Below are positions 229-45,819 of a DNA stretch of 64,000 nucleotides, one piece after another. The translations under genes were made by a program, and so were the position numbers. A model generated the notes under the pieces. It did no database searches. It was not told the origin of the DNA and was given only the letters and a program-made list of their open reading frames with translations. Numbering within the stretch: position 1 is the stretch's first letter; each line of letters begins with the position of its first letter. The DNA comes from Candidatus Nitrosoglobus terrae (GTDB lineage Bacteria > Pseudomonadota > Gammaproteobacteria > Nitrosococcales > Nitrosococcaceae): positions 1,923,091 to 1,987,090 of the forward strand of contig NZ_AP014836.1 in assembly GCF_002356115.1 (NCBI RefSeq), given 5' to 3'.

Positions 229-960
229 TTACTGGCTATAGGTGGAAAATTCTGCGCACTGAATTAAATCCTCAGCGCTTAAATTGCCATTATATAAAGC
301 GCTGGCTAATAACACTCCATCGGCACCCCACCGGACTAATTGTTGTAAATCTTTGAGGCAAACAACCCCCCCCGCTGCAAATAACCCTCCTTGCTGTAGC
401 CGTTTTTGCTTGATCTCATTCAACAGTGCCCAATCCGGCCCTTTCTGGGTTCCTATTTGTCCTAAGCTCATGACAATCACGGTCTCTGGCCATAATTCCG
501 GCTGGGCACTCAACTCCGCAGAACCAAGGAAATGGCCATCGCGGTAATCTAACGATAGAACTAATTGATCGGCCATGGGTAAACGCCGCAATTTTTGCCA
601 AGTGTCTATATCAGGTAGACTTTCCGTCCCCACTACCGGATAGGCTACCCCCAACGCAAATAATTGCAGGATAGCCTCACAGCTTACCGCCCCCCCATCT
701 ACCCATAATTTCAGCTTAGGATAATTTTGTACAATGGCGGCTATCACCGAGCGATGATGACCACGCCCCATAATTCCATCTAAATCAGCTAGATATAAAT
801 GGGAAAACGGATACCATTCCAACAATCCAGCTATAACCTCTAAAGGGGATGAATGAGCAGAAAAAGGAGAAATCAACGGTAAATAATGTTCCCGCCGCCC
901 TCCTTTTGCATGGACAACTAAATTATTCATTAAGTCAAGCACAGGTAGGAGTTTCATCAA
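229..960 (-). CDS. HisA/HisF-like TIM-barrel protein, cofactor-cluster type
   Basis: A 243-residue TIM-barrel protein resembling HisA, the phosphoribosylformimino-AICAR-phosphate isomerase. The two HisA-type catalytic aspartates appear kept (Asp9 in LPVLDL, Asp138 in LSLDYRDG). A C-terminal phosphate-binding-like segment (AAGGVVCLKDL near 195-205, then GADGVLLASALYNG) is also present. The usual GGIR segment is DGGAVS at 88-93, so the substrate is probably not the histidine intermediate, and there is no his operon here. Related HisA-like proteins accompany tetrahydromethanopterin and methanofuran genes in methylotrophs, where their reaction is not established to my knowledge. The neighbours at 3152-7285 fit that setting. 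Start chosen at the first of two Met codons. Confidence 0.7.
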   Translation of the reverse strand: MMKLLPVLDLMNNLVVHAKGGRREHYLPLISPFSAHSSPLEVIAGLLEWYPFSHLYLADLDGIMGRGHHRSVIAAIVQNYPKLKLWVDGGAVSCEAILQLFALGVAYPVVGTESLPDIDTWQKLRRLPMADQLVLSLDYRDGHFLGSAELSAQPELWPETVIVMSLGQIGTQKGPDWALLNEIKQKRLQQGGLFAAGGVVCLKDLQQLVRWGADGVLLASALYNGNLSAEDLIQCAEFSTYSQ

Positions 961-1486: not shown

Positions 1487-3052
1487 CTATTTCAGCAAGG
1501 ACGAAGGCATAAAGTTAATCTTAAGGATCTGCATAATGCGTTCACGGCTGTTTAATGACCCACGGGTAATCGTTCGTATCACCTCATAATAGGCCCTCAG
1601 TTTTGGATCTTGAATTCGGTTATCGTTAAATTTAATACTTTCCAGATAGCCCGCCGGCAGCTCTCGGTGAAAATGCCCAATCCGCCAATTTGGGTCGTAT
1701 TTTGCTGGCAGCCTTGCGAGTAAGGGATCGGCTAAGGCGCAGGTATCGATGTAATGGGTACCTGGGCCATCGTGGACAGAGAAAAACCCGAGGAAACCAC
1801 ATCTAACTTTAACTTTCGCCGAAAATTGTAGCGTGCAAGATTCTCTGCCAAGGGAGCGGCATATCATTTCGGCTTGATAGCGATCATCCCCTATGGTCCA
1901 TTCTGGGCGAGCAAACGTAGACTTTGGCGCCGCTAGGAGACCATACCCTTGAGAATAAAACCCTCGTTCATCCGCTATCCCATCGTTGTAAATCTTTACA
2001 TGGGAATAATCAAAGCCGCTGAAAATATTGGGCTGGAGGGAAAATATTCCAAAAGCTAGAAGCGCTACCGTCATATAAGCGGTATATTCTTTATCTAGTC
2101 GATTCAATAACGCCTTGGCAATCATCACGGAGGCCACGAAAAAAGGTACCGTAAAAAATCGGCCCTCCATGAAATCCCCCCCCACGCTAATAATATAAAC
2201 GATATACAAGCCTATCCCAGCCGCTAAAGCTTTGTGAATGGCTGAACCGCGAGCACCCAAGAGTAACCCCAAAGCTATCCAAAATAGGGTTAAGGGATCT
2301 CGATCTAGACTATGCAGGATATATCTAAATCCTTGAACAAATAGCTCGCTCTGGGGTATCCCCGTACCCAGCTTAGCATAGGCGGTATTGGGGAACATAA
2401 ATCCATAGTAATACAGGGAGAAACCCGTCCAAGCAATGATCGGGATAACAGCAATCAGTAAGGATTTCATCAGCCGTTTTTTATCCTTAAGATTCTGTAT
2501 CAATACGAGCATCGCAAGGGGAAGAATCACCAAAATTAAATCAGCCCGATTGAGATAAAGTAAGGAGCAACACAGAAAGAATAACGTCAGGTTTTTTTCA
2601 GGTGCTTCCTCAAGTCTGATAGCCAGTAATATAATCGTAATACTGAGTAGATGAGATAACGGATTTTCTAAACCAGAAGTTGAAAAATCAATAAAGGCTT
2701 TTGACAAGGTTAACGCAAGTAACATTAAGATTGCAGCGGGTATATTTTTAGTAAATTTTCCCAGTAATAATCCCACGGAGGCTATTGAGGCTAAGAGGGA
2801 GAGCACGAATGTGGAGACATAAACATTTTTAAAGATTAATGTACCAAGACTGAGCAGCAAAAACCAAAGCGGATGGGTATAGGCTTGAACCCGTTCATCT
2901 ACATTAAACGTTGGCCCAAATCCATGGGTAAAATTGAGGACAGTTCTAAGTGTGATGGCCGCATCATCAGAAATCCAAGCCGTTTTAACTAAAATGACCA
3001 AAAAATAAAAATAACAGCCGAATCGAATAAATGTCTGTAAGGATAGATTCAT
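1487..3052 (-). CDS. Polytopic membrane protein, GT-C glycosyltransferase-like
   Basis: A 521-residue protein with about ten hydrophobic segments over the first 350 residues and a soluble C-terminal domain of about 150 residues. Near residue 28 it has SDDAAITLRTVLN, followed by NVDERVQAYTHPLWF. This acidic pair in the first extracytoplasmic loop and the later aromatic motif are typical of GT-C enzymes that use lipid-linked sugars. The C-terminus has ADPLLARLP and GHFHRELPAGYLES. These resemble a motif pair in AftB/GT89-like proteins, so a role in sugar transfer to an envelope glycan or protein is plausible. Acceptor and donor cannot be deduced. It is divergent from the mfnD homologue. A 9-codon ORF with a strong ribosome site precedes it (3056-3085). 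Confidence 0.65.
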   Translation of the reverse strand: MNLSLQTFIRFGCYFYFLVILVKTAWISDDAAITLRTVLNFTHGFGPTFNVDERVQAYTHPLWFLLLSLGTLIFKNVYVSTFVLSLLASIASVGLLLGKFTKNIPAAILMLLALTLSKAFIDFSTSGLENPLSHLLSITIILLAIRLEEAPEKNLTLFFLCCSLLYLNRADLILVILPLAMLVLIQNLKDKKRLMKSLLIAVIPIIAWTGFSLYYYGFMFPNTAYAKLGTGIPQSELFVQGFRYILHSLDRDPLTLFWIALGLLLGARGSAIHKALAAGIGLYIVYIISVGGDFMEGRFFTVPFFVASVMIAKALLNRLDKEYTAYMTVALLAFGIFSLQPNIFSGFDYSHVKIYNDGIADERGFYSQGYGLLAAPKSTFARPEWTIGDDRYQAEMICRSLGRESCTLQFSAKVKVRCGFLGFFSVHDGPGTHYIDTCALADPLLARLPAKYDPNWRIGHFHRELPAGYLESIKFNDNRIQDPKLRAYYEVIRTITRGSLNSRERIMQILKINFMPSSLLK

Positions 3053-3151: not shown

Positions 3152-4183
3152 ATGAAAATCCTCGTGTATGAGCATATAACCAGCGGAGCCTTATGCACAG
3201 CGCCCTTACCTACCTCACTGGTCAGGGAAGGCAACGCCATGCTGGAAGCTTTGCTCACCGATCTAGCAGAAAACTCAAGCGTACAAACTGTTATTCTTCG
3301 GGATTATCGCCTAAAGCTACCGGCTCATATCCGCCACTATTACTATATCCATAATCTTGATGAATTCCACTGCCGCTGGCACGACTGTTTAGAGGGTGTG
3401 GATGCGGTCTTACCCATTGCTCCAGAAACTGAGGGTCTCTTAACCAAGATTCAGGAATCGGTACTTAAAGCGGATAAACGCTTACTCGGCTGCCATCCGG
3501 AAGCAACGGCTATCGCCACTAGTAAAAGCCAAACGGCTCACTGTCTAGCGGTAGCAGGATTAATGACTCTCCCCACCACTTGGCTTCAGGATTGGCAACC
3601 CGATAACGCCATAGCTGATCCTCTGATCTGTAAGCCCGATGATGGCGTTGGTAGTACTGATGTTTTATATTTCGATAACAGTACTACTTTAAACAGATGG
3701 AAACAGGGAAAACCGCCAGAAATTTTAGCCAACCGGATTGTTCAACCTTATCTTCAAGGAATAGCTGCTAGCCTTTGTCTGCTCTGCGATAAGGGTGAGG
3801 CGCTTTTACTCTGCATCAATCAGCAGCATATCCAAATGAAAGCGGGAGCCTTGTATCTAAGGGGGATTACCGTCAATACCATGGCAATCTCAAAAATCTT
3901 TCAGGAAATCGCGGATCGGATTGCCCATGCCTTACCCAAGCTATGGGGTTTCGTGGGGGTTGATCTTATCCTTGGCCCACAGCCTATCGTAGTAGAGATT
4001 AACCCGCGCTTGACCACCAGCTATCTCGGGTTACGGAAAACGTATGGGATCAACCCTACTCGCTGGCTATTGACCCTCCTAGATCAAGGGATAAAGGCAG
4101 TAGAGCTACCTCCTAATTTAGGCTATAAAATGACGCTTATCACGGAAAAACAAAGGGTTATTTGTGCCACTGACCGTTATTAG
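3152..4183 (+). CDS. mfnD: ATP-grasp ligase, MfnD-like (tyramine/tyrosine-glutamate ligase)
   Basis: A 343-residue ATP-grasp enzyme. It starts MKILVYEHITSGA, has the nucleotide-binding strand LICKPDDGVGSTDV near 160, and the metal-binding segment VVEINPRLTTSYLGL near 280-295, where Glu and Asn bind magnesium. MfnD joins L-glutamate to tyramine in methanogen methanofuran synthesis; bacterial methylofuran is reported to use tyrosine in place of tyramine. The assignment rests on these motifs and on the downstream mfnF and mfnE homologues. It overlaps mfnF by 20 bases, so the genes are translationally linked. No clear ribosome-binding site precedes the ATG. Another carboxylate-amine ligase function is possible. 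Confidence 0.75.
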   Translation: MKILVYEHITSGALCTAPLPTSLVREGNAMLEALLTDLAENSSVQTVILRDYRLKLPAHIRHYYYIHNLDEFHCRWHDCLEGVDAVLPIAPETEGLLTKIQESVLKADKRLLGCHPEATAIATSKSQTAHCLAVAGLMTLPTTWLQDWQPDNAIADPLICKPDDGVGSTDVLYFDNSTTLNRWKQGKPPEILANRIVQPYLQGIAASLCLLCDKGEALLLCINQQHIQMKAGALYLRGITVNTMAISKIFQEIADRIAHALPKLWGFVGVDLILGPQPIVVEINPRLTTSYLGLRKTYGINPTRWLLTLLDQGIKAVELPPNLGYKMTLITEKQRVICATDRY

Positions 4184-5219
4184 CGGCTGGGATATAGGGG
4201 GCGCTCATCTTAAAGGGGCTTTGACCAATGCTCAAGGCCAAATTATACGCTGTACTCAAGTATGCTGCCCTTTATGGCAAGGGTTGGATCATTTACTGCA
4301 GGCTTTTGAACATATGAAAATCCAACTAGGAGGAATCGGTGACCTAGTAGCCATCACTATGACAGGAGAGCTTGCTGATATTTTTAAGGATCGCCATCAA
4401 GGCGTTCAGCTTATTTTAGAATGTGTTGAGCAGTTTTTTAGCCCGATGCCCGTGTATGTATTTGCGGGCACTCAAGGATTTATTCCATTAGGGCACGCCT
4501 CAAAATATATAAAATCAATTGCCTCTGCCAATTATCTTGCTACTAGCCAGTTGGCTGCTCGCCATTGGGATCAAGGACTGATCATAGATATTGGTAGCAC
4601 TACCAGCGATCTCATTCCCTGTAAAGCGGGTAAGCCACACCCTCAAGGAAAAAATGACCATACTCGCCTGATAAGTGGTGAACTCGTATATAGTGGTGTC
4701 ATCCGAACACCGCTGATGGCTATAGTACAGCAGGCTCCTATAGAGGGGCGCTGGGTGCGACTAGCGGCTGAGCATTTTGCCACTACCGCTGATATCTATC
4801 ATTTGTTAGGATGGCTCCCAAAGGGTGTTGATCTTTATCCCAGCGCAGATCATCAAGGTAAAAGCCCAGAAGACTGCGCCCGGCGGCTGGCGCGAATGAT
4901 AGGCGCTGATAGCCAACAAGAATCATTCTCTTCGTGGAGAAAACTAGCCTTCTATTTTGCTGAACAACAATGCCAGCAGCTAACTCAAGCTATTTTTCAA
5001 GTACTTTCACGGATAAACCTTAAGCCTGAAGCCCCCATTATTGGCGCTGGCATAGGGCGGTTTTTAGCTATTGAATGCGCTCGAAGGGTTCATAGACCTT
5101 ATGTAGATTTCGCTGAAATATTAAAAATGAGCCCCCATATCCCTATCAATGCGGATCACGCCCCTGCTGCTGCTATAACACAACTTGCTTGGGAACAATT
5201 GCAAAATACCCATTGTTAA
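4164..5219 (+). CDS. mfnF: MfnF-like H4MPT-linked C1 transfer pathway protein (hydantoinase/ASKHA fold)
   Basis: A 351-residue ASKHA-fold protein beginning at GTG 4164 inside the mfnD end. Phosphate-loop-like segments are GWDIGGAHLKGAL near 8 and IIDIGSTTSDLIP near 140. A GAGIGRFLA segment lies near 295. This family was long annotated as hydantoinase-like in tetrahydromethanopterin gene clusters. In methanogens MfnF condenses the aminomethyl-furan diphosphate with gamma-glutamyl-tyramine to form the ether core of methanofuran. Lying between mfnD and mfnE homologues strongly supports that role. It is four bases from the pabB start, so a single operon is likely. Confidence 0.8.
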   Translation: MPLTVISGWDIGGAHLKGALTNAQGQIIRCTQVCCPLWQGLDHLLQAFEHMKIQLGGIGDLVAITMTGELADIFKDRHQGVQLILECVEQFFSPMPVYVFAGTQGFIPLGHASKYIKSIASANYLATSQLAARHWDQGLIIDIGSTTSDLIPCKAGKPHPQGKNDHTRLISGELVYSGVIRTPLMAIVQQAPIEGRWVRLAAEHFATTADIYHLLGWLPKGVDLYPSADHQGKSPEDCARRLARMIGADSQQESFSSWRKLAFYFAEQQCQQLTQAIFQVLSRINLKPEAPIIGAGIGRFLAIECARRVHRPYVDFAEILKMSPHIPINADHAPAAAITQLAWEQLQNTHC

Positions 5220-5223
5220 TTTT

Positions 5224-6657
5224 ATGCAAACCCACCCCTTATATGCAGAATTGCCTTATTCCGAGGACTCAGTACCGTTATTTGAAGCGGTACGACTAGA
5301 TCCTTGGCCGATTTTTTTAGATAGCGGCTGGCCTACCAACTCACTAGGGCGTTTTGATATCATTGCCGCTGATCCCTTTGTAACCCTTAAAACAACAGAG
5401 CTAGAGACAACCATTTGTAAGCGTGGCCATACTTTCTCAAGCATTGATAACCCCTTTACCCTGTTACGATCTGAGCTGTATCGCTATCGAAACCAAAAAA
5501 CGCCTTTCTCCACCCATGAGCTTCCCATGATAGGGGGCGCTATGGGCTATTTCAGCTATGACTTGGTTCGATACTTTGAAAAGCTCCCGACCCTTGCCTT
5601 AGATAGGGAAAATATGCCTGAAATGGCCATTGGGATTTATGATTGGGTCATTATTGTTGATCATCACCAGCAGCGCTGCTTTCTTGTAGGTCAGGGTTAT
5701 GACGCTAAAACTAGAGAACGATGGGAAGCGCTTAAACATCATTTACGCCAAGTTCGCTGCTCACCGCCTCAAACTCCATTTCACCTCAGCAGCCAAATTA
5801 TATCTAACCTAGATAGGCAAGATTACCATCAGGCATTTACTCATATTCAATGTTATATTCGGGAAGGGGATTGTTACCAAGTTAATCTCTCCCAGCGATT
5901 TGAAGCCTTTGCCCAAGGAGATCCATGGGCGCTCTACCGTCGCTTACGCCTAGTCAATGGGGCGCCTTTTAGCGCCTACTTTACCATTCCAGAAGGCACT
6001 ATACTCAGCACTTCTCCTGAGCGCTTCCTGCAGGTGGATGCTACCGGCACCGTTGAAACTCGTCCTATCAAGGGAACTCGTCCTCGAAGTGCTAACTCAT
6101 TAGCCGATCAGCAGCTTGCACTAGAACTTCAGCACAGCCCTAAAGATCGGGCAGAAAATGTGATGATTGTCGATCTGCTACGTAATGATCTAGGTCGGGT
6201 ATGTACCCCAGGTACCATTCACGTTCCTAGTCTTTGTACGATTGAATCCTTTGCCACCGTCCACCATTTGGTAAGCACCATACGAGGTCAACTTGCACCC
6301 AAGCAAGATTCCCTTGCGCTATTGCAGGCCTGTTTTCCAGGAGGATCAGTGACGGGGGTTCCCAAGATTCGGGCAATGGAAATCATTGAAGAATTAGAGC
6401 CTCATCGTCGTGGGATTTACTGTGGTAGTCTCGGTTACCTTGATTTTGAGGGCAAGATGGATACCAATATCGCTATCCGCACCCTAGTGCATAATCAAGG
6501 CTGTTTGCGCTTCTGGGCCGGAGGGGGCATTGTGGCCGACTCAATGGAGGAAGACGAATACCAAGAGACGTTAACAAAGGCAGCCGCTATCTTATCTACT
6601 TTAACTGAGTACACCCGATTAACTCATCATCCTACAAGATTTTCTTGCCTTGGCTAG
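5224..6657 (+). CDS. pabB: Aminodeoxychorismate synthase component I (PabB)
   Basis: A 477-residue chorismate-utilising enzyme; start at ATG 5224 (MQTHPLYAELPY), just after mfnF. Family motifs are SPERFL, PIKGTRPRS, LLRNDLGRVC, GSVTGVPKIRAMEI and GGGIVADS. The Lys in PIKGT (about 284) is the residue that distinguishes PabB from anthranilate synthase TrpE, which has Ala there. It makes 4-amino-4-deoxychorismate from chorismate with amidotransferase-derived ammonia, leading to p-aminobenzoate for folate. p-Aminobenzoate is also the substrate of beta-RFA-P synthase in methanopterin synthesis. That may explain its place between mfnF and mfnE, though this link is inference. Confidence 0.88.
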   Translation: MQTHPLYAELPYSEDSVPLFEAVRLDPWPIFLDSGWPTNSLGRFDIIAADPFVTLKTTELETTICKRGHTFSSIDNPFTLLRSELYRYRNQKTPFSTHELPMIGGAMGYFSYDLVRYFEKLPTLALDRENMPEMAIGIYDWVIIVDHHQQRCFLVGQGYDAKTRERWEALKHHLRQVRCSPPQTPFHLSSQIISNLDRQDYHQAFTHIQCYIREGDCYQVNLSQRFEAFAQGDPWALYRRLRLVNGAPFSAYFTIPEGTILSTSPERFLQVDATGTVETRPIKGTRPRSANSLADQQLALELQHSPKDRAENVMIVDLLRNDLGRVCTPGTIHVPSLCTIESFATVHHLVSTIRGQLAPKQDSLALLQACFPGGSVTGVPKIRAMEIIEELEPHRRGIYCGSLGYLDFEGKMDTNIAIRTLVHNQGCLRFWAGGGIVADSMEEDEYQETLTKAAAILSTLTEYTRLTHHPTRFSCLG

Positions 6658-7285
6658 CTTTACAGAACATAGCGCTCCATGGGTGATTAAACTGGGGGGT
6701 AGCCTCTACTACAGTCATACCCTTTCCCAATGGCTACAGCAGCTTAGTGCAATTGGAGCCGGAAAATTTGTTATCGTCCCAGGCGGAGGCCCATTTGCTG
6801 ATCAGGTACGGGCTGCTCAAAAACGCTGGAAAATCACCAATATTCATGCCCATGCCATGGCATTACTGGCCATGGGGCAATTTGGCTATCTACTCCAGAG
6901 CTTAGCACCTAAGCTGTGTGTTGCTAACAGCTGTAGCCATATTCACCAAGCTTTACATCAAGGGCAGGTACCCATTTGGCTGCCGACCACTGAGGTATTA
7001 AATCACCCTGAGATCCCAGCCACTTGGGAGGTCACTTCTGACAGCCTAGCCCTTTGGCTGAGCGGTCAATTAAAAGCCAGTCGATTAATTTTGGTGAAAA
7101 GCGCACACATCCCTGACTCATCATCCATAAGCGCTCAGACCCTTGCCCAGCAAGGAATTGTGGATACGGCTTTCCCCAATTTTCTTCGCACAATTACTAT
7201 TCCCTGTTATTACGCCCATACAGAGGATTATCTACACGCCACCGAAAATGGAATCAGTCACATAGGAACCTGTATCCTTGTATAA
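6650..7285 (+). CDS. mfnE: MfnE-like amino-acid-kinase family protein (aminomethylfuran phosphate kinase)
   Basis: A 211-residue amino-acid-kinase fold protein. The phosphate-binding motif VIKLGGSLYYS lies near 12-22, VIVPGGGPFADQVR near 42-55, and VTSDSLALWLSGQLKASRL in the C-terminal half. MfnE converts 5-(aminomethyl)furan-3-ylmethyl phosphate to the diphosphate that MfnF uses. The start is TTG at 6650, which overlaps the last eight bases of pabB; the next in-frame Met is too late to keep the kinase motif. It ends the four-gene block. Family identity is good, and the exact substrate is inferred from the neighbours. Confidence 0.78.
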   Translation: MASFTEHSAPWVIKLGGSLYYSHTLSQWLQQLSAIGAGKFVIVPGGGPFADQVRAAQKRWKITNIHAHAMALLAMGQFGYLLQSLAPKLCVANSCSHIHQALHQGQVPIWLPTTEVLNHPEIPATWEVTSDSLALWLSGQLKASRLILVKSAHIPDSSSISAQTLAQQGIVDTAFPNFLRTITIPCYYAHTEDYLHATENGISHIGTCILV

Positions 7286-7408: not shown

Positions 7409-9583
7409 ATGCGAAAAAGTAATATTATTGCCCTGACGTTATTCACCCTCGCCCTTGTTAATATCGCCCTTCAGTACTTGGCAGGGGAGGCTATCGGTAA
7501 GTGTGCCCCAGGAATCCCCATTTTCACTTGCCCGTTACTGAATGCAGATGTGCTGTATATCCCCACCCTGTTTTCTGATCTGCTGGCCAAACAAGGCCAC
7601 TTTCAGGATTGGTTTCTGACCCCAGCCCCCTATTTCTTCCCCGATTACCTTATGTTTCTGTTGGCCTATCTGCTAGGCTCAGGGCCTTATATTCAAATTC
7701 TGATTTTTGCCCTCCTGCAAGTCAGTTTAACCTTTGGGGCTATTTGGCTGCTGGCAAAGCAGGTCCTCGATAACGCTCATGCACTACTCACTGCTGCTGC
7801 CGTATCGATCCTATTGGTTTGGCTGGCCTTAACCGCTTCTCAGCCCTTTGTGCTGTTTTTAGTGATTGGGTTTCACTATGGTACTTTTTTGATTTCTATT
7901 ATTTTTATGGCGTTATGGTTGCAGATCAAAGACTCAAGAGAGAATCAAAGCCAACGCCTAGTTTATGTATTGCTTGCGCTGCTGGCCTTTCTGATTGCTG
8001 TATCCGATCGACTCTTTATTGCTCAAACTCTTGCCCCACTAATAGCTATTAGTTTGCTGATTCCCCTTATCAAGCAAAACTTCACCTTAAAAACCGAATG
8101 GTTAGCCCCAGCCATGGCTTTAACCTTGATTGGTTTAATAGTCCTGCAATTGGCGGTCAGTCTTCCTTATTATTTTTCTATGGAATTGGGGTTTATTATC
8201 ATTGCCGTGCTGGCCACTTTAATGAGCCAAGATTTACTTTTAAAGCTAAAAAACCACGTTATTCACCCAAGCCCTACCCTAAAATCTCACCTGCCTTTAA
8301 TGTTAGTCATCGCCTCTACTCTCATCGGGGTGGTGGTGTTTAAGCTGACAATTACGATTCCTCATTATGGCGTAGTGCCTGAATTTAAAGGTATATCTAT
8401 CAACCTAGATAGATTTTATACGGCATTTCAGAGCGCTGTTACCGACCATCCTCTCTTTAGTGGGTTATTGGTATGCTATCTAGCTGTTGTTCTACGTACT
8501 TTTTACCGCCTCAAAACTAACCCCCGTGCCCTTGACTATAAACTATCTTGGCTCATCCTCTTTTCTGTCCTCTCTATGACACTGGTCTTACTTGCTTTTT
8601 TATCAGTTTCTAGGCCTGTAAATACCATCCGGTACTTAATTCCGTTTTTCTTCTGGCCCATTATCATTACTTGCTTCTATTTAAGCCATTATCTCACGAC
8701 TAGATTTATCCCCACTGCCATCACGGCCTGTCTCCTGCCGATACTGGCCTTAAGCGGACAGTCCTATCAATTAATTCAAGAAAATGGCCTCAATACTCGT
8801 TACTATCCCAACGATATTGCCTGTCTCGATGAGACCTTGGAAAAAGCCCAGCTTAATCATGGCCTCGCTCAATATTGGGATGCCAAGTATCTCCAGAATT
8901 TTAGTCGCTTGGATCTCACCCTTGCTCAGTACGACAAAGATAACGCGCCCCTTAAAAAGGATTACTATTGGATCACCTCAAAGAAATATTTCAGAGAAAA
9001 CTACGATTTTGCCATTATGAATGAGCGAGCCTCCCCTGAGCCTATTATTAGGATTAATGGCAGTCCCCAGCGGGTTAAAAGCTGCGGATTTAGAAAACTC
9101 TATATCTACGGTAAAGATAGGTTACAGGTTAACAATACCTTTAATCCAGGCGATTCTTATACTTGGAAAGCCTGTGATTTGCCTACAGAAATCGGTCAGA
9201 AATCAGATCAATGTGCTATGGAGAAAAAAGATACAGCACAAGCGGGGTTTGTGACTCATGGCCCGTATAAAAAATTACCCGCCGGTCAATATCATTTTGA
9301 AATTACTTACATGAGCCCAGCAGATACATTAGCGACCGTGGGCGCTTGGGGCGTGGTGGTTGACCCCAGCCAGAATCTTAAAGTCTTAAAATCTCAGCCG
9401 CTCTTAGGTACTCACTGGGCAATAGGAAAGGCTCGCGGGGATTTTTTCTTAGCCTCAGCTCAAGATATGAAGGAGGTGGAGATCCGTACTTGGGCTAAAA
9501 AAAACCAGAATCTAAAGGTGCTCTCTCTTCAAATTACCCGAGATACTCGATTCTGGCATCAAAACTCAATTTGGAATAATTAA
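7409..9583 (+). CDS. Large polytopic membrane protein of unknown family
   Basis: A 724-residue protein with an N-terminal membrane anchor. There are about a dozen hydrophobic segments through residue 450, then a soluble C-terminal region of roughly 270 residues with several Cys (for example IACLDE, KSCGFRK, WKACDLP, DQCAMEK). The late part (GQYHFEITYMSP, VGAWGVVVD) looks like a beta-sandwich, as in carbohydrate-binding modules. The overall plan resembles GT-C glycosyltransferases, but I see no diagnostic DD or DE loop motif and do not assign a function. It lies 123 bases after the mfnE homologue on the same strand, so co-transcription is possible but not shown. Confidence 0.6.
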   Translation: MRKSNIIALTLFTLALVNIALQYLAGEAIGKCAPGIPIFTCPLLNADVLYIPTLFSDLLAKQGHFQDWFLTPAPYFFPDYLMFLLAYLLGSGPYIQILIFALLQVSLTFGAIWLLAKQVLDNAHALLTAAAVSILLVWLALTASQPFVLFLVIGFHYGTFLISIIFMALWLQIKDSRENQSQRLVYVLLALLAFLIAVSDRLFIAQTLAPLIAISLLIPLIKQNFTLKTEWLAPAMALTLIGLIVLQLAVSLPYYFSMELGFIIIAVLATLMSQDLLLKLKNHVIHPSPTLKSHLPLMLVIASTLIGVVVFKLTITIPHYGVVPEFKGISINLDRFYTAFQSAVTDHPLFSGLLVCYLAVVLRTFYRLKTNPRALDYKLSWLILFSVLSMTLVLLAFLSVSRPVNTIRYLIPFFFWPIIITCFYLSHYLTTRFIPTAITACLLPILALSGQSYQLIQENGLNTRYYPNDIACLDETLEKAQLNHGLAQYWDAKYLQNFSRLDLTLAQYDKDNAPLKKDYYWITSKKYFRENYDFAIMNERASPEPIIRINGSPQRVKSCGFRKLYIYGKDRLQVNNTFNPGDSYTWKACDLPTEIGQKSDQCAMEKKDTAQAGFVTHGPYKKLPAGQYHFEITYMSPADTLATVGAWGVVVDPSQNLKVLKSQPLLGTHWAIGKARGDFFLASAQDMKEVEIRTWAKKNQNLKVLSLQITRDTRFWHQNSIWNN

Positions 9584-27361: not shown

Positions 27362-28036
27362 GTGGCAATTACTGATTGGCCTACACTGGAAAGACCTCGA
27401 GAAAAATTACTTCAGAGAGGCCCAGGAGCATTATCTGATGCTGAGCTTTTAGCCATTTTTCTTCGTACTGGAGTTACTGGAAAAACCGCTGTTGACTTAG
27501 CGCGGGAACTTCTAGAAACCTTCGGGGGGTTACGTGCCTTATTAGAAGCTAGCCAAAGTGAATTTTGCCGTATTCCTGGCTTAGGATTAGCTAAATATAC
27601 ACAACTACAAGCCTGCTTGGAGATAGGTCGCCGACATTTAGAAGCCACCCTTAAACGAGGAGATGCACTCACCGATCCACTCACCACTAGACGATATTTA
27701 ATGGCGCGCTTACGCGCTTACCCTTTTGAAGTGTTCTCTTGTCTCTTTCTTGACAATCGACACCGAGTGCTTGCTTTTGAGGAATTATTTCAAGGCACCA
27801 TTAACAGTGCTAGTGTTCATCCCCGGGAGGTAGTTAAGCGTGCTCTAGCTCATAATGCCGCCGCCGTTATCTTAGCCCATAATCACCCCTCCGGGGTAGC
27901 AGAGCCTAGCCAAGCTGATAAAGCGATTACTCAACGACTCAAAGAGGCTTTAGATCTAGTGGATATTCGGGTTTTAGATCACGTTATTATTGGAGATGAA
28001 GAAACGCTCTCTTTTGCTGAACTAGGATTTATTTAA
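27362..28036 (+). CDS. radC: RadC family JAB-domain protein
   Basis: A 224-residue RadC homologue, starting at GTG 27362 ([17 protein letters not shown]), a classic family N-terminus. A helix-hairpin-helix part ([16 protein letters not shown]) precedes the JAB/MPN metal-binding segment [15 protein letters not shown]. The biochemical role is unsettled; older DNA-repair annotations are doubtful. Its 3' end overlaps the convergent folA 3' end by 15 bases. No clear ribosome site precedes the GTG. Confidence 0.94.
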
Positions 28037-28528
28037 ATTTAAGGATCGCTCCAAACGACTAAAACTATAGGGATAAAGGTTGTTAGCATCAGGGCTATGG
28101 TATTCTTGCCAAACTTCAATCCAAGCATCATAAGGATCGAGATCTGGAAACCAAGCATCTCCATTAAAAGATTCATACACCTGAGTCAAGTAAATACGCT
28201 GAGCTTTAGGCAGTGTTTGCCGATAAAGAGAAGCGCCCCCAATGATCATCATTTCTTCAGCTTCTTTAGCTACCTCTAACCCGCTTTCCAATGTATGTAC
28301 TACTGTACATCCCGATGCCTGATAGTGAGGATTGCGAGTAATCACAATATTATCTCGTCCTGGTAAAACACGCCCAATGGATTCATGAGTACAACGCCCC
28401 ATTAAAATAGGCTTTCCCATCGTAAGACGACGAAAGTTTTTCAGATCTGCGGGTAGATGCCAAGGCAGCTGATTATTACAACCTATAAGCTGGTTTTTAT
28501 CTACAGCAGCAATTAGCGAGATAATCAC
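28022..28528 (-). CDS. folA: Dihydrofolate reductase
   Basis: A 168-residue FolA reducing dihydrofolate with NADPH. Motifs: [41 protein letters not shown], and [23 protein letters not shown]. The active-site acid in the LPADLK segment is Asp, as in E. coli. It follows thyA by nine bases, forming the usual thyA-folA unit that regenerates folate consumed by thymidylate synthesis. Confidence 0.97.
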
Positions 28529-28537
28529 ATTTACAGT

Positions 28538-29332
28538 TTACACTGAAACTGCTGCTTTAATTACAGAATGAGGGGTATATCCTATAACTTCTAAGTCTTC
28601 ATAAGCATAATCAAATAGAGAAGACGGTTTACGTTTAATGTGAAGCTGCGGTAATGGGCGAGGTTTTCTAAGCAGCTGTAGCCGTGCTAGCTCTAAGTGA
28701 TTTCGATAAAGATGAACATCTCCTCCCGTCCAAATAAACTCCCCCACGCCTAAATCACATTGCTGAGCGACTAGATGAGTTAAAAGGCTATAGGAGGCAA
28801 TATTAAAAGGAACACCCAAGAAAACATCGGCACTACGCTGATAGAGCTGACAGGATAAATTACCTTTGGCCACATAAAATTGAAATAAAACATGGCAAGG
28901 CGGCAACGCCATTTTATCGATCACTGCAGGGTTATAAGCCACTACGATATGGCGGCGACTATTAGGATTAGATTGTATTTGTTTAACCACCTCTGAGATC
29001 TGATCTAGAGACTTTCCATTGGGTAATGGCCAAGAGCGCCACTGATAACCATAAATGGGACCCAAATCCCCATGCTCATTAGCCCATTCATCCCAAATAG
29101 TCACCCCATGATCATGAAGATATTGGATATGAGTATCGCCTCTTAAAAACCATAACAATTCCACAAAAATAGAACGGATATGAAGTTTTTTAGTCGTGAT
29201 TAAAGGGAACCCTTGCTGTAAATCAAATCGCATCTGGTAGCCAAAAATGGATACTGTTCCAGTACCAGTTCGATCTTCCCGCTCAGTTCCAATATCAAGT
29301 ATCTTTTGCATCAAATCAAGATACTGTTTCAT
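28538..29332 (-). CDS. thyA: Thymidylate synthase
   Basis: A 264-residue ThyA, the same length as the E. coli enzyme. It methylates dUMP with methylene-tetrahydrofolate. Catalytic Cys146 is in [12 protein letters not shown]. The dUMP-binding region [14 protein letters not shown] and the C-terminal APHS-like [13 protein letters not shown] are present. With lgt upstream and folA downstream it forms a common gammaproteobacterial cluster. Confidence 0.98.
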
Positions 29333-35501: not shown

Positions 35502-35861
35502 ATGAAAACTATCAGCTATTTAATCTTACTTGGGGGAGTCTTATCCCTAGTTTCGATAACTGCTTCGGGTGCAAATTTATCTTCTTCTCAAAACACTTAC
35601 CCAGCTCTAAAAATGGGGATAAACAAAGATAAAGAAATGCGTAGTGATGAAAGATTTAAAAAAATGGACAAAAATAGGGATGGAAGAATCAGTAAGCAAG
35701 AACTTAGAAGCAAAGGAGGCAATAAATTTAAGCGCTTAGACACTAATAAAGACGGTTATGTCAGCAAAGAAGAATTTGAAGCCAATGGTAAAAAACATCA
35801 AAGAAGACAAAATAAAAGGCACTCTAAAAAGGAAGGAAGTCAATTTCAAGGACAATATTAA
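35502..35861 (+). CDS. Secreted EF-hand protein 1
   Basis: A 119-residue protein with a signal peptide (cleavage near TASGA) and two canonical EF-hand loops: DKNRDGRISKQE at 56-67 and DTNKDGYVSKEE at 80-91. Both have Asp at 1 and 3 or equivalents, Gly at 6 and Glu at 12, so both should bind calcium in the periplasm or outside. A very basic tail (KKHQRRQNKRHSKK) could bind polyanions or membranes. AGAGAG lies upstream of the ATG. First of three related genes in a row. Confidence 0.85.
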   Translation: MKTISYLILLGGVLSLVSITASGANLSSSQNTYPALKMGINKDKEMRSDERFKKMDKNRDGRISKQELRSKGGNKFKRLDTNKDGYVSKEEFEANGKKHQRRQNKRHSKKEGSQFQGQY

Positions 35862-36115
35862 TTAAGCCTACTCTACGTTCACCCGGTATTTATTCCTAAA
35901 ACTGTATTGATCAGATAAAACCATTAGTTGAAATCACCCCTATAGAGTGGCTTAAAACAAGCAATTTTTATAATCTAAGCTATTTTTAGCCTATCATACT
36001 TTTCTGAATATACTCTTAATATCAGTCACTTATTGATATTTTTAAATAAATGGCACGGAATTAGCTAGTAATTAATTAAGCTAGTTTAAAATTATGAATA
36101 GAGAAAGGAGAATTT

Positions 36116-36454
36116 ATGAAAATTATTAAAATGATGGGTTGTTCAATACTTTTCAGTGGGGCTTTATCGCTAGCTTCAGCGCCTGTTTTCGCTGAAAACC
36201 AATCTTCCCTACAAAAAACAAATATAACCAAAAAGCAAGAAATGCACGATAAAAGCTGGTTTCAAGAAATGGATAAAAATGGGGATGGAAAAATCAGCAA
36301 GCAAGAGTTTGAGCAAGCGGCAGATAGTAGATTTGCAAGCATGGATACTAATAAAGACACTCATGTGAGCATACAAGAATTTGTAGCTTCTGCTAAGACA
36401 TGGAAAAAGGAGCATGCAGGGAATTATTCACGGCACGGAAATCACAGCTTGTAG
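36116..36454 (+). CDS. Secreted EF-hand protein 2
   Basis: A 112-residue protein with a signal peptide (ending SAPVFAEN) and two EF-hand loops. DKNGDGKISKQE at 53-64 is canonical. DTNKDTHVSIQE at 77-88 has lost the Gly at position 6, so the second site is probably weaker. An AAGGAG ribosome site lies just before the ATG. It shares layout and spelling with the neighbours at 35502 and 36708, which points to local duplication. Confidence 0.83.
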   Translation: MKIIKMMGCSILFSGALSLASAPVFAENQSSLQKTNITKKQEMHDKSWFQEMDKNGDGKISKQEFEQAADSRFASMDTNKDTHVSIQEFVASAKTWKKEHAGNYSRHGNHSL

Positions 36455-36527
36455 AAGGCATTAATCATAATAAGCAGGCATTATAATAAAAAAACTTATA
36501 TAGTTAGTAAGGAAGTTTTAATGTATG

Positions 36528-36572
36528 CCCTGTCTAAGTTGTCTAGTTTGGGGTTAGGCAGGGTTTTTCTTT
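36528..36572 (+). terminator. Rho-independent terminator after EF-hand gene 2
   Basis: An imperfect stem CCCTGTCTAA against TTAGGCAGGG with a loop of about 16 bases is followed directly by TTTTTCTTT. It lies about 75 bases past the stop of the second EF-hand gene and separates it from the third. Confidence 0.7.
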
Positions 36573-36707
36573 AAGTGTATTTGTCAGGCTCGTTCTTGGC
36601 CTAATTTCCACAGCACCAAATTCCATTCTCTTGCTCTTGATGATAAATGCTTTTATCATTTAGGTGTGTTTACTTACAGTTTTCCAATAATAGCTAGTAA
36701 AGAGATA

Positions 36708-37073
36708 ATGTATATACAAGCCACGAATCGATTTAAAGCCCTACGGGCTTTCCTCCTAGGAGGATTTCTATCACTAGTTTTAGCTCCTGCTTTTGGCACT
36801 GGAGCTATGCCCTTTCCTGTACACCCTAACTATTGGGGAAAATTAGGGGAGGAATATAAAGAGATAGATAGGAATAAAGATGACCAGATCAGCAAAAGAG
36901 AATTTGAGGAGGCAGCAGATGTAGAGTTTGACGAGCTAGATGCTAACCACGATGGTTATATTAGCGAGGAAGAATTTAGTCACTTTGAGTGCCTAGACAC
37001 TAACCACGATGGCTATATCAGCACAGAGGAATTCAAAGCCAACAGTGGTCGCCCCTGTCGCCGTTTCAGATAA
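36708..37073 (+). CDS. Secreted EF-hand protein 3 (three EF-hands)
   Basis: A 121-residue protein; the frame opens at GTG 36666, but ATG 36708 (MYIQATNRFKAL) gives a proper signal peptide and has AGAG upstream. Three EF-hand loops: DRNKDDQISKRE at 54-65 (Asp instead of Gly at position 6), DANHDGYISEEE at 78-89 and DTNHDGYISTEE at 97-108. The last two are almost identical, suggesting an internal duplication. Probably a calcium-binding envelope protein; role unknown. Confidence 0.83.
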   Translation: MYIQATNRFKALRAFLLGGFLSLVLAPAFGTGAMPFPVHPNYWGKLGEEYKEIDRNKDDQISKREFEEAADVEFDELDANHDGYISEEEFSHFECLDTNHDGYISTEEFKANSGRPCRRFR

Positions 37074-42302: not shown

Positions 42303-43910
42303 TTACGGTAATAGGGGCAACCCCAGCGCCTTAAGGAATACGTTGTGCTGCTCGGTAGCCATCTTAATTTTCTTATCCAACAAGACCAGCTTCCCATATT
42401 CGTCCTCAACATCAATTTCCACCTCAGTTTCCGCAGTGCTCACATAGCGCGAGATATTTAGGTTGAAATCGTTCTTCTCAATGTCCTCCATAGCCACCCG
42501 CCGTGAGTAGCGCGCTTCTTCCTTGCGATATTGATAGGTATCAATAATCTTGTCAATGTGCTCAGGCAACAACTGATTTTGCCGTTTGCCCTTCTCAAAG
42601 TGTTCAGCCGCATTGATAAACAGCACATCATCTGGCTTCTTGCATTTTTTCAACACCAAAATACACACGGGAATGCCTGTAGAAAAAAACAAGTTAGCCG
42701 GCAGGCCAATCACAGTGTCAATATAGCCATCGTTAAGTAGCTTGGTACGGATGCGCGCCTCAGCACCGCCACGGAACAGCACCCCGTGGGGCAAGATAAT
42801 AGCCATCACGCCATCGGGCTTTAAAAAATAAAACCCATGCAATAAAAAAGCAAAATCGGCGGCAGATTTAGGCGCTAAGCCGTAGTTTTTAAAACGGGCA
42901 TCCTCACCCAATACTTCAGTGGGTTCCCAGCGATAGCTAAATGGTGGATTAGCCACCACGGCATCGAATTTTGGTATTTTGGTTGGGTTACTTTCCTTCA
43001 GCCACGCCCACTCATTAACTAATGTATCGCCATGGAAGATCTCAAACTCCGAATCCATTACTCCATGCAGCAACATATTCATGCGCGCCAAGTTATAGGT
43101 AGTGATATTCTTCTCTTGCCCGATGATCTTGCCGATACCGCGCGATCCCATGCGATGACGTACATTTAACAGCAACGAACCCGAGCCGCAGGCAAAATCT
43201 AGTACACTGTCTAGATGCTTGCGCTGGCCAGTTTCTGGCGCTTGGCTATCCAGCGTGACAATCGCCGATAAAATACTGGAAATAGGTTGTGGCGTGTAAA
43301 ATTCGCCTGCTTTTTTGCCACTACCTGCCGCAAATTGGCCAATCAGATACTCGTAAGCATCCCCCAAGGTATCGCTATCGGTGGAAAAATCGGCCAACCC
43401 CTTGGCAATCTCACTGATGATCTTACACAGCTGCGCATTACGCTCGGCATAAGTCTTGCCTAGCTTTTCGGAATTTAAATTAATCTCAGAAAACAGGCCA
43501 CGAAACGCGCTAGCAAAAGACTCATTTTCAATATAACTCAAGCCTTTTTGCAGCGTATCAAGTAATTCGCCATTCTGCGAACGCGCTAGCTCAGTAATAC
43601 TGCTCCATAGATATTCCGCCCGAATCACATAATGTACCTTACGGCGCATTTGTTGCTCAAACTCAGCCATATCATCTGGGTTCTGTGCAGACCACACCGC
43701 CAGCGGCGCGCGGCGATCCCCTGCATCCAGCTCGGGATAATCCGACCCTAATTCCCTTTTTGCCGCCGCCTCGTAGTTATCCGACAAATAGCGCAAAAAC
43801 AAAAACGCCAGCATATAATCACGGAAATCATCCGCGTTCATCGCTCCGCGTAGCTGATCAGCTATCGCCCACAAGGTTTTACCTAGTTTTTGTTTTTCAG
43901 ATTCGGTCAC
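42303..43910 (-). CDS. hsdM: Type I restriction-modification DNA methyltransferase HsdM
   Basis: A 535-residue N6-adenine methyltransferase subunit. An N-terminal helical HsdM_N domain (about 6-140) precedes SAM motif I DFACGSGSLLL at 238-248 and catalytic NPPF at 321-324. GEFYTPQPIS at 203 is the usual lead-in. The start is GTG 43910 with AGAGA upstream. With HsdS it methylates the recognition site; with HsdR the complex cleaves unmodified DNA. It is cut off from hsdS by a toxin-antitoxin pair. Base composition is visibly richer in G+C than the flanks. Confidence 0.95.
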   Translation of the reverse strand: MTESEKQKLGKTLWAIADQLRGAMNADDFRDYMLAFLFLRYLSDNYEAAAKRELGSDYPELDAGDRRAPLAVWSAQNPDDMAEFEQQMRRKVHYVIRAEYLWSSITELARSQNGELLDTLQKGLSYIENESFASAFRGLFSEINLNSEKLGKTYAERNAQLCKIISEIAKGLADFSTDSDTLGDAYEYLIGQFAAGSGKKAGEFYTPQPISSILSAIVTLDSQAPETGQRKHLDSVLDFACGSGSLLLNVRHRMGSRGIGKIIGQEKNITTYNLARMNMLLHGVMDSEFEIFHGDTLVNEWAWLKESNPTKIPKFDAVVANPPFSYRWEPTEVLGEDARFKNYGLAPKSAADFAFLLHGFYFLKPDGVMAIILPHGVLFRGGAEARIRTKLLNDGYIDTVIGLPANLFFSTGIPVCILVLKKCKKPDDVLFINAAEHFEKGKRQNQLLPEHIDKIIDTYQYRKEEARYSRRVAMEDIEKNDFNLNISRYVSTAETEVEIDVEDEYGKLVLLDKKIKMATEQHNVFLKALGLPLLP

Positions 43911-43928
43911 AATATTTCTCTCTTATTC

Positions 43929-44192
43929 TCATTCGTAGTGACTCCACAGCCGTAGAATTTTGACTACAGGCCCATCTTCCAACACCTGATAAACCAAGCG
44001 GTGCTGAATATTAATTCGACGGGAACAGATGCCCGCCAAGTCGCCAACCAGTTTCTCAAACGAAGGCGGTTTTTTATAGGGATCTTCTAAGATTAATGCT
44101 AGCAGCTCCTGAGCCTTTGCGCGCAAGCCCCTTGCAATCAGCTTTTTTGCATCTTTCTGAGCCTGCTTACTATAAACTAGCCGCCATATCAC
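43929..44192 (-). CDS. yoeB: Txe/YoeB family toxin (endoribonuclease)
   Basis: An RelE-fold toxin of about 87 residues that cleaves mRNA at the ribosome in family members. It has the family features SKQAQKDAKKL, GICSRRINIQHRLVYQV and the C-terminal LWSHYE, where His and Tyr are active-site residues. A TTG at 44195 gives one more residue; I chose GTG 44192, which overlaps the antitoxin stop by four bases (GTGA). Encoded between the antitoxin gene and hsdM. Confidence 0.88.
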   Translation of the reverse strand: MIWRLVYSKQAQKDAKKLIARGLRAKAQELLALILEDPYKKPPSFEKLVGDLAGICSRRINIQHRLVYQVLEDGPVVKILRLWSHYE

Positions 44193-44431
44193 CAACCGAG
44201 ATCCTCATCGCATTCATCAATTGGGGTAGCCATACCCTCACGAATCGACTCTCCCATACCCGGCACAGAAAGCAGGAACAAAGTTTCTTGGATGGCAGCC
44301 CAATCTTCTTCAGATACCAAAACAGCCTTGTTTCGCTTGCCCATAATCACGATGGGCTGATGAGACTCAGCGGCTTCATCAATCAACCGATATAGATTGC
44401 TACGAGCCTCAGTTACCGTAATTCCGTTCAT
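44189..44431 (-). CDS. yefM: YefM/Phd family antitoxin
   Basis: An 80-residue antitoxin starting at ATG 44431 (MNGITVTEARSNLYRLIDE); a GAGG lies six bases before it, whereas the ATG at 44443 has no such site. The N-terminal DNA-binding Phd/YefM fold includes QPIVIMGKRNKAVLVSEEDW. The acidic C-terminus (DECDEDLGW) should bind and block the toxin. These proteins normally repress their own operon. It overlaps the toxin gene. Confidence 0.9.
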   Translation of the reverse strand: MNGITVTEARSNLYRLIDEAAESHQPIVIMGKRNKAVLVSEEDWAAIQETLFLLSVPGMGESIREGMATPIDECDEDLGW

Positions 44432-44532
44432 GTCATACCTCATATTTATTCAATTGATAAGTAATTGTACTTTTAAGGTGATTTTCCCAGCACCATTTGG
44501 CCTAGCGATGATGATAATTCGTTTACTCACAC

Positions 44533-45819
44533 TCACGTGCTCATCTCATCCATGACGGGAAACAACTGCTGCATCAAGCCTTTTTTATGGCGTTTAAGGG
44601 TGTCGATTTTTTGGCGTTGGGCGGTGATGAGATCATCCAGAGAAGAGAGGCAGGCGGCAATGCGTTGTTGTTCTGGTAACGAAGGGTAGGCAATAAACAA
44701 AGCCCTAATTATTTCTGCATTAAGATTAAGTACCCCGCTACCCGCAGCATTATTTAAGAAATAGGACTGACTTGATGGAGAGAAAATTAAATAATAAAGA
44801 TACTCTTTGCTTACAGATTCATGTAACTCTGTAATGGCAATCCATCCATCGTGAATACATGACTTAATTTTCATTAAATAAGGTCGCCCAAAACTCATTG
44901 AATTCGAGAGTATTAAATCGCCAAGGTTCACCTCTCTCGTCTTGCTTAGCGCTTCGGGTCGAACTCTCTCTTCTGTTCTGATGACATATTTTTCCTCTTT
45001 ATCTACATCGCCAATCTTTAGCCAATTTAACCCATTAGCCTCTATGGTAAGAAAGCTGCTGATTGGGCGTGGGGAACCACCGCGTACAACGGTAGAAAGA
45101 TCACCAAGATTATTCAATTCCCACTCCCCCGCCTCCTGAAATTCTGGAAAGCGTAGGCGGGGCACAGTTTCCCCTTCACGAGGGAACAGTTGTTGCATTA
45201 AGCCTTTTTTGTGGGCTTTGAGAACCTTTAGTTTTTGGGTTTCTGCCGTGATCAGTTCGTCGAGAGAGGACAGGCAGGCGGCAATGCGTTGTTGTTCTTT
45301 CAATTTCGGAACGGCAACATCGATTTTAGCTAAATCTGAAGAACTAATAGCCGGATAATTCGAGCCAGTGCATTTTTCTAGAACTCGACCGACGAAATCG
45401 TTTGTATGGATCAGCTGATATAAGAACCGCTCAGATTCAAAAGCTCTTAATTGTGCATAGCCAGTTGAGGCAACATAGTCATTTTCATCGAAGGAAAAGA
45501 AAAAATTATTTTTCTGATAAGGACGAACAATCTGATAAATAACATCCCCTATTTTCAAGAGTCGCTGCGCTCTGCTAGGTGCCTCTTCTCGCTTTATTAT
45601 TTTTCTTATTTTCAGCTCTCCAGCTTCTACTGATTCTAAATCTATATATACAAATGTTTCAGGAAGTACTGAACTTGAAGGGTTTACTGTGCAAACACTA
45701 TCCAACGGTTTTATTTCCCACTCTCCCACCTCCCGAAATTCTGGAAACCTTAGCCGTGGCACCAGCGCCCGCTTTTTGTGGTTCTGCTCATCCATGGCGT
45801 TCGTGTCTTTATGGCTCAT
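44533..45819 (-). CDS. hsdS: Type I restriction-modification specificity subunit HsdS
   Basis: A 428-residue DNA-recognition subunit with two target-recognition domains, each closed by a conserved helical region. The half-repeats begin PRLRFPEF.E.GEWE (near 21 and 220) and end EQQRIAACLSSLD.LITA, HKKGLMQQLFP. This two-fold layout is that of full HsdS, so the site should be bipartite. The start overlaps the hsdR stop by 11 bases. The repeats are also DNA repeats (44557-44675 and 45182-45298). Confidence 0.95.
   Translation of the reverse strand: MSHKDTNAMDEQNHKKRALVPRLRFPEFREVGEWEIKPLDSVCTVNPSSSVLPETFVYIDLESVEAGELKIRKIIKREEAPSRAQRLLKIGDVIYQIVRPYQKNNFFFSFDENDYVASTGYAQLRAFESERFLYQLIHTNDFVGRVLEKCTGSNYPAISSSDLAKIDVAVPKLKEQQRIAACLSSLDELITAETQKLKVLKAHKKGLMQQLFPREGETVPRLRFPEFQEAGEWELNNLGDLSTVVRGGSPRPISSFLTIEANGLNWLKIGDVDKEEKYVIRTEERVRPEALSKTREVNLGDLILSNSMSFGRPYLMKIKSCIHDGWIAITELHESVSKEYLYYLIFSPSSQSYFLNNAAGSGVLNLNAEIIRALFIAYPSLPEQQRIAACLSSLDDLITAQRQKIDTLKRHKKGLMQQLFPVMDEMST
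44557..44675. repeat. Direct repeat copy 1 within hsdS (conserved region 2)
   Basis: About 120 bases encoding the helical spacer and HKKGLMQQLFP. It is similar to 45182-45298 in the same gene, with blocks of exact match such as the stretch CAGGCGGCAATGCG. Confidence 0.75.
45182..45298. repeat. Direct repeat copy 2 within hsdS (conserved region 1)
   Basis: Partner of 44557-44675. The two copies flank the second recognition domain and could support domain exchange with another hsdS by recombination. Exchange itself is not seen here. Confidence 0.75.

Follow-up and report, generated by a model that had tools for sequence, protein, structure and literature searches.

Gene content of the locus

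We examined a 64,000-nucleotide stretch of the genome of Candidatus Nitrosoglobus terrae (contig NZ_AP014836.1, positions 1,923,091 to 1,987,090; hereafter the window), in which homologues of the methylofuran (MYFR) biosynthesis genes mfnD, mfnF and mfnE form one tight run with pabB (Table 1). Methylofuran and tetrahydromethanopterin (H4MPT) are usually regarded as two partners of a single pathway; here, the methylofuran enzyme system is kept while the genes of its H4MPT partner have been lost. All four open reading frames (ORFs) of the run are listed on the forward strand. The first two, mfnD and mfnF, share 20 bases, with a GTG as the start of mfnF, and four bases separate mfnF from pabB when the ATG at 5224 is taken as the pabB start, which is most likely, rather than the start of the listed ORF. 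A further 8 bases are shared by pabB and mfnE if the latter, whose start is uncertain, begins at the TTG at 6650. These two overlaps and one gap bear out the initial annotation, which had described a single tight run with pabB between mfnF and mfnE. A promoter and terminator scan gave no more matches than were obtained in shuffled sequences.

Profile searches also upheld the enzyme assignments proposed for MfnD, MfnF, MfnE and PabB, for the Mfn proteins at the level of homologues. Since their scores fall below the archaeal equivalog cut-offs, we grade MfnD, MfnF and MfnE from their sequences as homologues and not as certified equivalogs; these archaeal models are nevertheless the best NCBIfam matches of MfnD and MfnE, and MfnF passes the cut-off of the bacterial model TIGR03123.

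Table 1. Positions of features in the window, with profile scores where obtained
Feature	Position	Strand	Matches
mfnD homologue (orf1), ATP-grasp, predicted tyramine/tyrosine-glutamate ligase	3152..4183	+	PF02655 97.8 bits; PF18301; NF040722 MfnD 84.7 bits (cut-off 400)
mfnF homologue (orf9), predicted joining of furan diphosphate to glutamyl-tyramine/tyrosine	4164..5219	+	TIGR03123 376 bits (cut-off 244.1); NF040623 MfnF 137.6 bits (cut-off 520)
pabB, aminodeoxychorismate synthase component I	5224..6657 (listed ORF from 5185)	+	TIGR00553 384.9 bits (cut-off 328.4)
mfnE homologue (orf21), amino-acid-kinase fold, predicted aminomethylfuran phosphate kinase	6650..7285	+	PF00696 46.6 bits; NF040622 MfnE 85.1 bits (cut-off 300)
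HisA/HisF-related protein, same island	229..960	-	PF00977 85 bits; TIGR00734 hisAF_rel 100.9 bits (cut-off 179.85)
Large membrane-type protein	1487-3052	-	
Large membrane-type protein	7409-9583	+	
folA and thyA	28022-29332		
Three small EF-hand proteins	35502-37073	+	
HsdM, HsdS and HsdR, type I restriction-modification system	42303-48778	-	

Conservation of gene order and retention without H4MPT genes

The survey comprised 59 genomes, namely that of the window (G000; 2,018,309 bases, 99.98% complete) and 58 relatives. TIGR03123, the profile for mfnF, found a match in 55 of the 59; a first contig scan with the MfnF profile alone had returned no match. In all 30 order-level loci examined, which are the best-scoring of the 55 matching genomes, mfnD, mfnF and pabB stand in this order and share a strand, and mfnE comes next in all seven genomes read at 20 kb, the window's own apart. 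Because the order recurs in all 30 loci and mfnE follows in 7/7, the four-gene run is more than chance, and comparison of gene order in related genomes identifies it as an ordinary and known operon, a conserved methylofuran-plus-PabB arrangement. Two methylotroph-like genomes of the order (G019 and G034) carry it within the island mch-myfB-orf17-fae-hisA'(-)-mfnD-mfnF-pabB-mfnE, where hisA' denotes the HisA/HisF-related gene, which is also common to all six genomes of the window's family (G000 to G005).

Over the 59 genomes, mch was found in 50, mfnF in 55, mptG in 52 and fae in 52; within the family, mfnF and fhcD are present in 6/6, and mch, fae and mptG each in 2/6, always G003 and G004. 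The sole sister-family genome with mfnF but no mch match (G057) is incomplete (68%). Another member of that family, G009 (1.1 Mb, rated 100% complete), is without mfnF, mch, mptG, fae and fhcD, and this full loss contrasts with the partial loss in the window's family.

Whole-genome profile searches of G000, in each of which the methanogen controls were positive, gave no match for mch, for fae or for mptG (ribofuranosyl-aminobenzene phosphate synthase). Genome-wide absence covers these three genes together with PurU (by PF00551); for mtdA/B and orf17, likewise not found, the search covered the island together with the region around fhc. Conversely, mfnB is present (C1:5536-6186; PF04476, 190.9 bits, above cut-off) and adjoins a contiguous fhcCDAB, of which A, B and D exceed their family cut-offs and FhcC is assigned solely from its position and its homology to the copies in the other family members. 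The initial annotation had named mfnB, mch, fae, fhc and mptG as genes to be sought, and had made its reading depend on mch, fae and fhc; of those three, two are absent and fhc is present. No more than 3 kb before the first base of the window lie myfA (L011:15306-16304) and myfB (L011:16312-17217), assigned by family (ATP-grasp_3 and RimK/MptN, respectively) and island position, and 55-58% and 68-70% identical to their copies in G001, G003, G004 and G005. MfnD is 26% identical across 189 aligned columns to MyfA, the second ATP-grasp protein. By tblastn and translation, a conserved N-terminal stretch precedes the first ATG, GTG or TTG of myfA in G000 (L011:15171-15306) and G002 (L073:13365-13584). 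In fhcD of G001 (L081:10125-10173) and G005 (L085:10637-10685), the conserved N-terminus is kept with no ATG, GTG or TTG before it.

Comparison of islands located the losses. G003 has the order pntB-mtdB-mptG-mtdC-myfA-mch-myfB-orf17-fae-hisA'(-)-mfnD-mfnF-pabB-mfnE (mtdB and mtdC are provisional names, both genes encoding Mpt_N proteins), and G000, G001, G002 and G005 have pntB-myfA-myfB-hisA'(-)-mfnD-mfnF-pabB-mfnE, which in G000 and G005 is interrupted by inserts particular to the lineage. Six genes, mtdB, mptG, mtdC, mch, orf17 and fae, are thus cleanly missing at the locus. Searches by tblastn with the six G003 proteins found no relics in the islands and fhc regions of the four genomes, with chance-level matches only (E >= 0.14); the absence of mtdB and mtdC refers to these two regions, to which the search was limited. 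Where orf17-fae would stand, G000 has a SoxA/TsdA-like cytochrome c protein (L011:17328-18275, reverse strand) and G005 has three unnamed ORFs (L078:13594-15793, reverse strand).

Role of the embedded pabB

The PabB protein exceeds its family cut-off (Table 1) and carries the motif PIKGT, which we take to be of PabB type, and its TrpE paralogue (L004) carries PIAGT. A genome-wide search found no further PabB, the second family member being this TrpE (580 bits to trpE_most). Given that it is the sole PabB found, that mptG is absent and that folA and thyA lie in the window, PabB here most plausibly supplies p-aminobenzoate for folate.

The initial annotation had instead proposed that PabB feeds the ribofuranosyl-aminobenzene step of methanopterin, and that the run places two C1 cofactors under joint control. 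With mptG missing, the known route of p-aminobenzoate into methanopterin is closed, and both proposals fail in this genome on the absences reported above. A complete H4MPT and methylofuran pathway of formaldehyde oxidation under joint control would fit the ancestor as well as G003 and G004, whose island still contains mtdB, mptG, mtdC, mch and fae, and the methylotroph-like G019 and G034 also keep mch and fae in theirs. For the window's genome, which lacks mch, fae and mptG and has no relics at the locus, such a pathway is refuted unless unrecognised replacements exist, and we consider it very improbable.

Number of losses

With the outgroup formed by G019 and G034, nine housekeeping proteins resolved the family as ((G000,G002)99,((G001,G005)100,(G003,G004)100)98), and a tree of the 12 module proteins gave the identical topology. 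The approximately unbiased (AU) test rejected monophyly of the four H4MPT-less genomes with both the housekeeping (p 0.023) and the module proteins (p 0.007). Given the ancestral-looking gene order in the sister family, the tree and the AU test make two separate losses, with the same survivors each time, the simplest account. We consider one loss followed by regain in G003 and G004 unlikely, because mch is flanked by myfA and myfB, and orf17-fae by myfB and the hisA-like gene, a place that orf17-fae also occupies in G019 and G034. The MYFR/Fhc module is retained without H4MPT in what are probably three genera, after two inferred losses.

Sequence constraint on the retained module

The methylofuran/Fhc set remains intact, and purifying selection acts on most of it. 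Its 12 genes are open in six of six genomes, including two as small as 1.8-2.0 Mb. Pairwise NG86 ratios of nonsynonymous to synonymous substitution rates (dN/dS) for the module genes were 0.072-0.348 in the H4MPT-less pair G001-G005 and 0.054-0.296 in the H4MPT-positive pair G003-G004; the divergence between G000 and G002 was too great for dS to be used in most of these genes. Control genes in G001-G005 gave 0.034-0.137, with one divergent protein at 0.218 and a 62-residue pntA fragment set aside. FhcD is equally constrained in the two pairs (0.072 and 0.070, respectively) and has the lowest ratio of the 12 in the H4MPT-less pair. On a fixed topology, Fhc branch lengths are not consistently above those of housekeeping proteins (0.155 vs 0.206 for G000, 0.472 vs 0.446 for G002), with Fhc the faster on the tips leading to G001 (0.060 vs 0.033) and G005 (0.061 vs 0.041).

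For residue-level comparison we used 80 named loci, assumed to be those of H4MPT users, of which 50 contributed FhcA, 52 FhcB and 74 FhcC, the others having no match of sufficient length. The HxH motif of FhcA and its other candidate metal-ligand histidine and lysine columns are invariant in 56/56 sequences. An enrichment of lysine and arginine losses, as a sign of altered polyglutamate binding, was rejected (20/58 against 150/610 conserved columns changed, p 0.11). Parallel substitutions in the two H4MPT-less lineages, numbering 12 in FhcA against 3.0 expected and 15 in FhcD against 6.0 by chance overlap, were likewise rejected as a diagnostic: sites differ in mutability, and FhcA of Methylorubrum extorquens, an H4MPT user, has several of the same states (HSH, GGN, LGNDD).

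A proposed function and its alternatives

To account for the genes observed, the lack of mch, fae and mptG anywhere in the genome, the parallel retention and the sequence constraint, we propose that the four genes would constitute the operon for MYFR biosynthesis within an order-wide island, and that pabB would be an ancestral passenger from when that island also served H4MPT. The H4MPT half (mtdB, mptG, mtdC, mch, orf17 and fae) has gone from the island and the MYFR half (mfnB, mfnD, mfnF, mfnE, myfA and myfB) has stayed, as has fhcABCD, pabB probably being kept as the only source of p-aminobenzoate for folate. One study describes M. extorquens MYFR as a prosthetic arm of Fhc that carries formyl units between two active sites, leading to formate (PMC8141765). 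If MYFR is made here, it could likewise be the bound swinging arm of Fhc: FhcD would take formyl from 10-formyl-tetrahydrofolate or another non-H4MPT donor, and FhcA would hydrolyse it to formate, resulting in a formyl-folate hydrolase and a formaldehyde-detoxifying route in a presumed ammonia oxidiser. Taken as a whole, we regard this explanation as evenly poised between right and wrong. That methylofuran-Fhc has twice been uncoupled from H4MPT in this presumed ammonia-oxidiser family, and works with tetrahydrofolate or some other carrier, is a tentative and rather doubtful claim; formyl-tetrahydrofolate would most plausibly be that carrier.

The distribution of PurU bears on the folate role in both directions. 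G000 and G002 each have two PF00551 proteins, which resemble PurN and Fmt in size and context, and no PurU by this search, so that a further formyl-folate hydrolase would not be redundant there; the absence is suggestive of a folate role for the window's own genome only.

Several observations weigh against the proposal. True PurU proteins occur in G001 and G005 (354-358 bits, cut-off 286), and complementarity of PurU and Fhc is therefore not general; a third PF00551 match in G004 is not PurU. The orf17 gene is missing from the island and the fhc region, and Orf17 is reported in PMC8141765 to be essential for MYFR in M. extorquens. A non-standard codon, CTG, occupies the initiator place of fhcD in G001 and G005, and the myfA start codon seems non-standard in G000 and G002. 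Furthermore, dN/dS in the H4MPT-less pair exceeds that in the H4MPT-positive pair by a factor of 1.7 to 3.8 for FhcA (0.136 and 0.072), FhcB (0.207 and 0.054) and FhcC (0.163 and 0.098). At FhcD columns with at least 97% conservation among 82 sequences (the 80 named loci with G003 and G004), changes number 17 in G001, 20 in G005, 20 in G000 and 49 in G002, against 3 in G003 and 5 in G004. The raised ratios and excess FhcD changes indicate either a change of function or partial relaxation, and the parallel FhcA changes do not point to a new substrate, since several of their states are shared with M. extorquens FhcA.

These rates, FhcD changes and odd start codons would also be expected if the module were a slowly decaying remnant, in which C1 oxidation had stopped, the H4MPT genes had been lost first and MYFR/Fhc were to follow. 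A 2016 study read the conserved clusters of Nitrosococcus watsonii and N. oceani, which are without key genes, as a relatively recent loss of function (PMC5020050). Slow decay is a serious rival, but we judge it unlikely: the twelve genes remain open even in the two small genomes, the constraint on FhcD matches that in H4MPT users, the same set survives two inferred losses, and the Fhc branch of the window's own genome is shorter than its housekeeping branch.

Alternatively, Fhc and methylofuran might act on a non-folate formyl donor, such as a formylated amine or a spontaneous formaldehyde adduct, with FhcD mainly structural or serving to dock MYFR. Such a division would agree with the retention of the FhcA active-site histidines alongside change at many FhcD columns conserved in presumed H4MPT users, but the lowest dN/dS of the module in the H4MPT-less pair, that of FhcD, suggests that its own catalysis matters, and we hold this alternative to be improbable.

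Other features of the window

The two large membrane-type proteins that flank the operon (Table 1) are without a Pfam match, have no counterpart at those places in G001, G003, G004 and G005, and show no detectable relation to each other; the upstream protein matches an arabinofuranosyltransferase model weakly, with a score below the cut-off. Further along, the window encodes three successive small EF-hand proteins with signal-like N-termini and a type I restriction-modification system.

Comparison with known systems

Titles and abstract openings of the literature on Nitrosococcus and ammonia oxidisers, and on Fhc or methanofuran with folate, describe no H4MPT-free Fhc, and a term search of PMC8115276 and PMC13170337, on an acidophilic relative, returned no mention of methanopterin or methanofuran. 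Genomes with methylofuran/Fhc genes and without recognised H4MPT genes offer a natural test of which formyl carriers Fhc accepts, and, if the proposal made here is true, would represent a case of a methanogen-type formyl enzyme being used independently of H4MPT. The departure of orf17 from the island together with the H4MPT genes hints that Orf17 belongs to the H4MPT half, despite its reported essentiality for methylofuran in M. extorquens. More generally, these findings caution that methanofuran-type genes alone do not warrant inferring methanopterin metabolism.

The genes found here are those of the "archaeal-like" H4MPT/methylofuran islands of methylotrophic proteobacteria (orf1/mfnD, orf9/mfnF, orf21/mfnE, orf22/mfnB, orfY/myfA, orf5/myfB, orf17, pabB and fhcABCD). 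PMC8141765 equates Orf22, Orf21 and Orf9 with MfnB, MfnE and MfnF, and OrfY and Orf5 with MyfA and MyfB, respectively; orf1 is given as an alias of mfnD in PMC5020050, and pabB is listed in a Methylosinus paper among genes commonly tied to H4MPT biosynthesis (PMC3615186). The order mfnD-mfnF-pabB-mfnE matches that of methylotroph-like genomes of the order. Unlike the methylotroph islands, that of the window's genome is without mtdB, mptG, mtdC, mch, orf17 and fae, of which mch, fae and mptG are gone genome-wide. FhcA and FhcD are clear homologues of the M. extorquens Fhc subunits (PDB 6s6y), and the candidate metal-ligand histidines are kept, but Fhc is maintained here without any recognised source of formyl-H4MPT. 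The partial H4MPT/methanofuran clusters of N. oceani and N. watsonii, the species to which G001 and G005 probably belong, have likewise lost key genes while the remaining cluster is conserved; beyond these, the present comparison adds two further genera, a loss specific to the H4MPT half, a constrained MYFR/Fhc half and two inferred losses.

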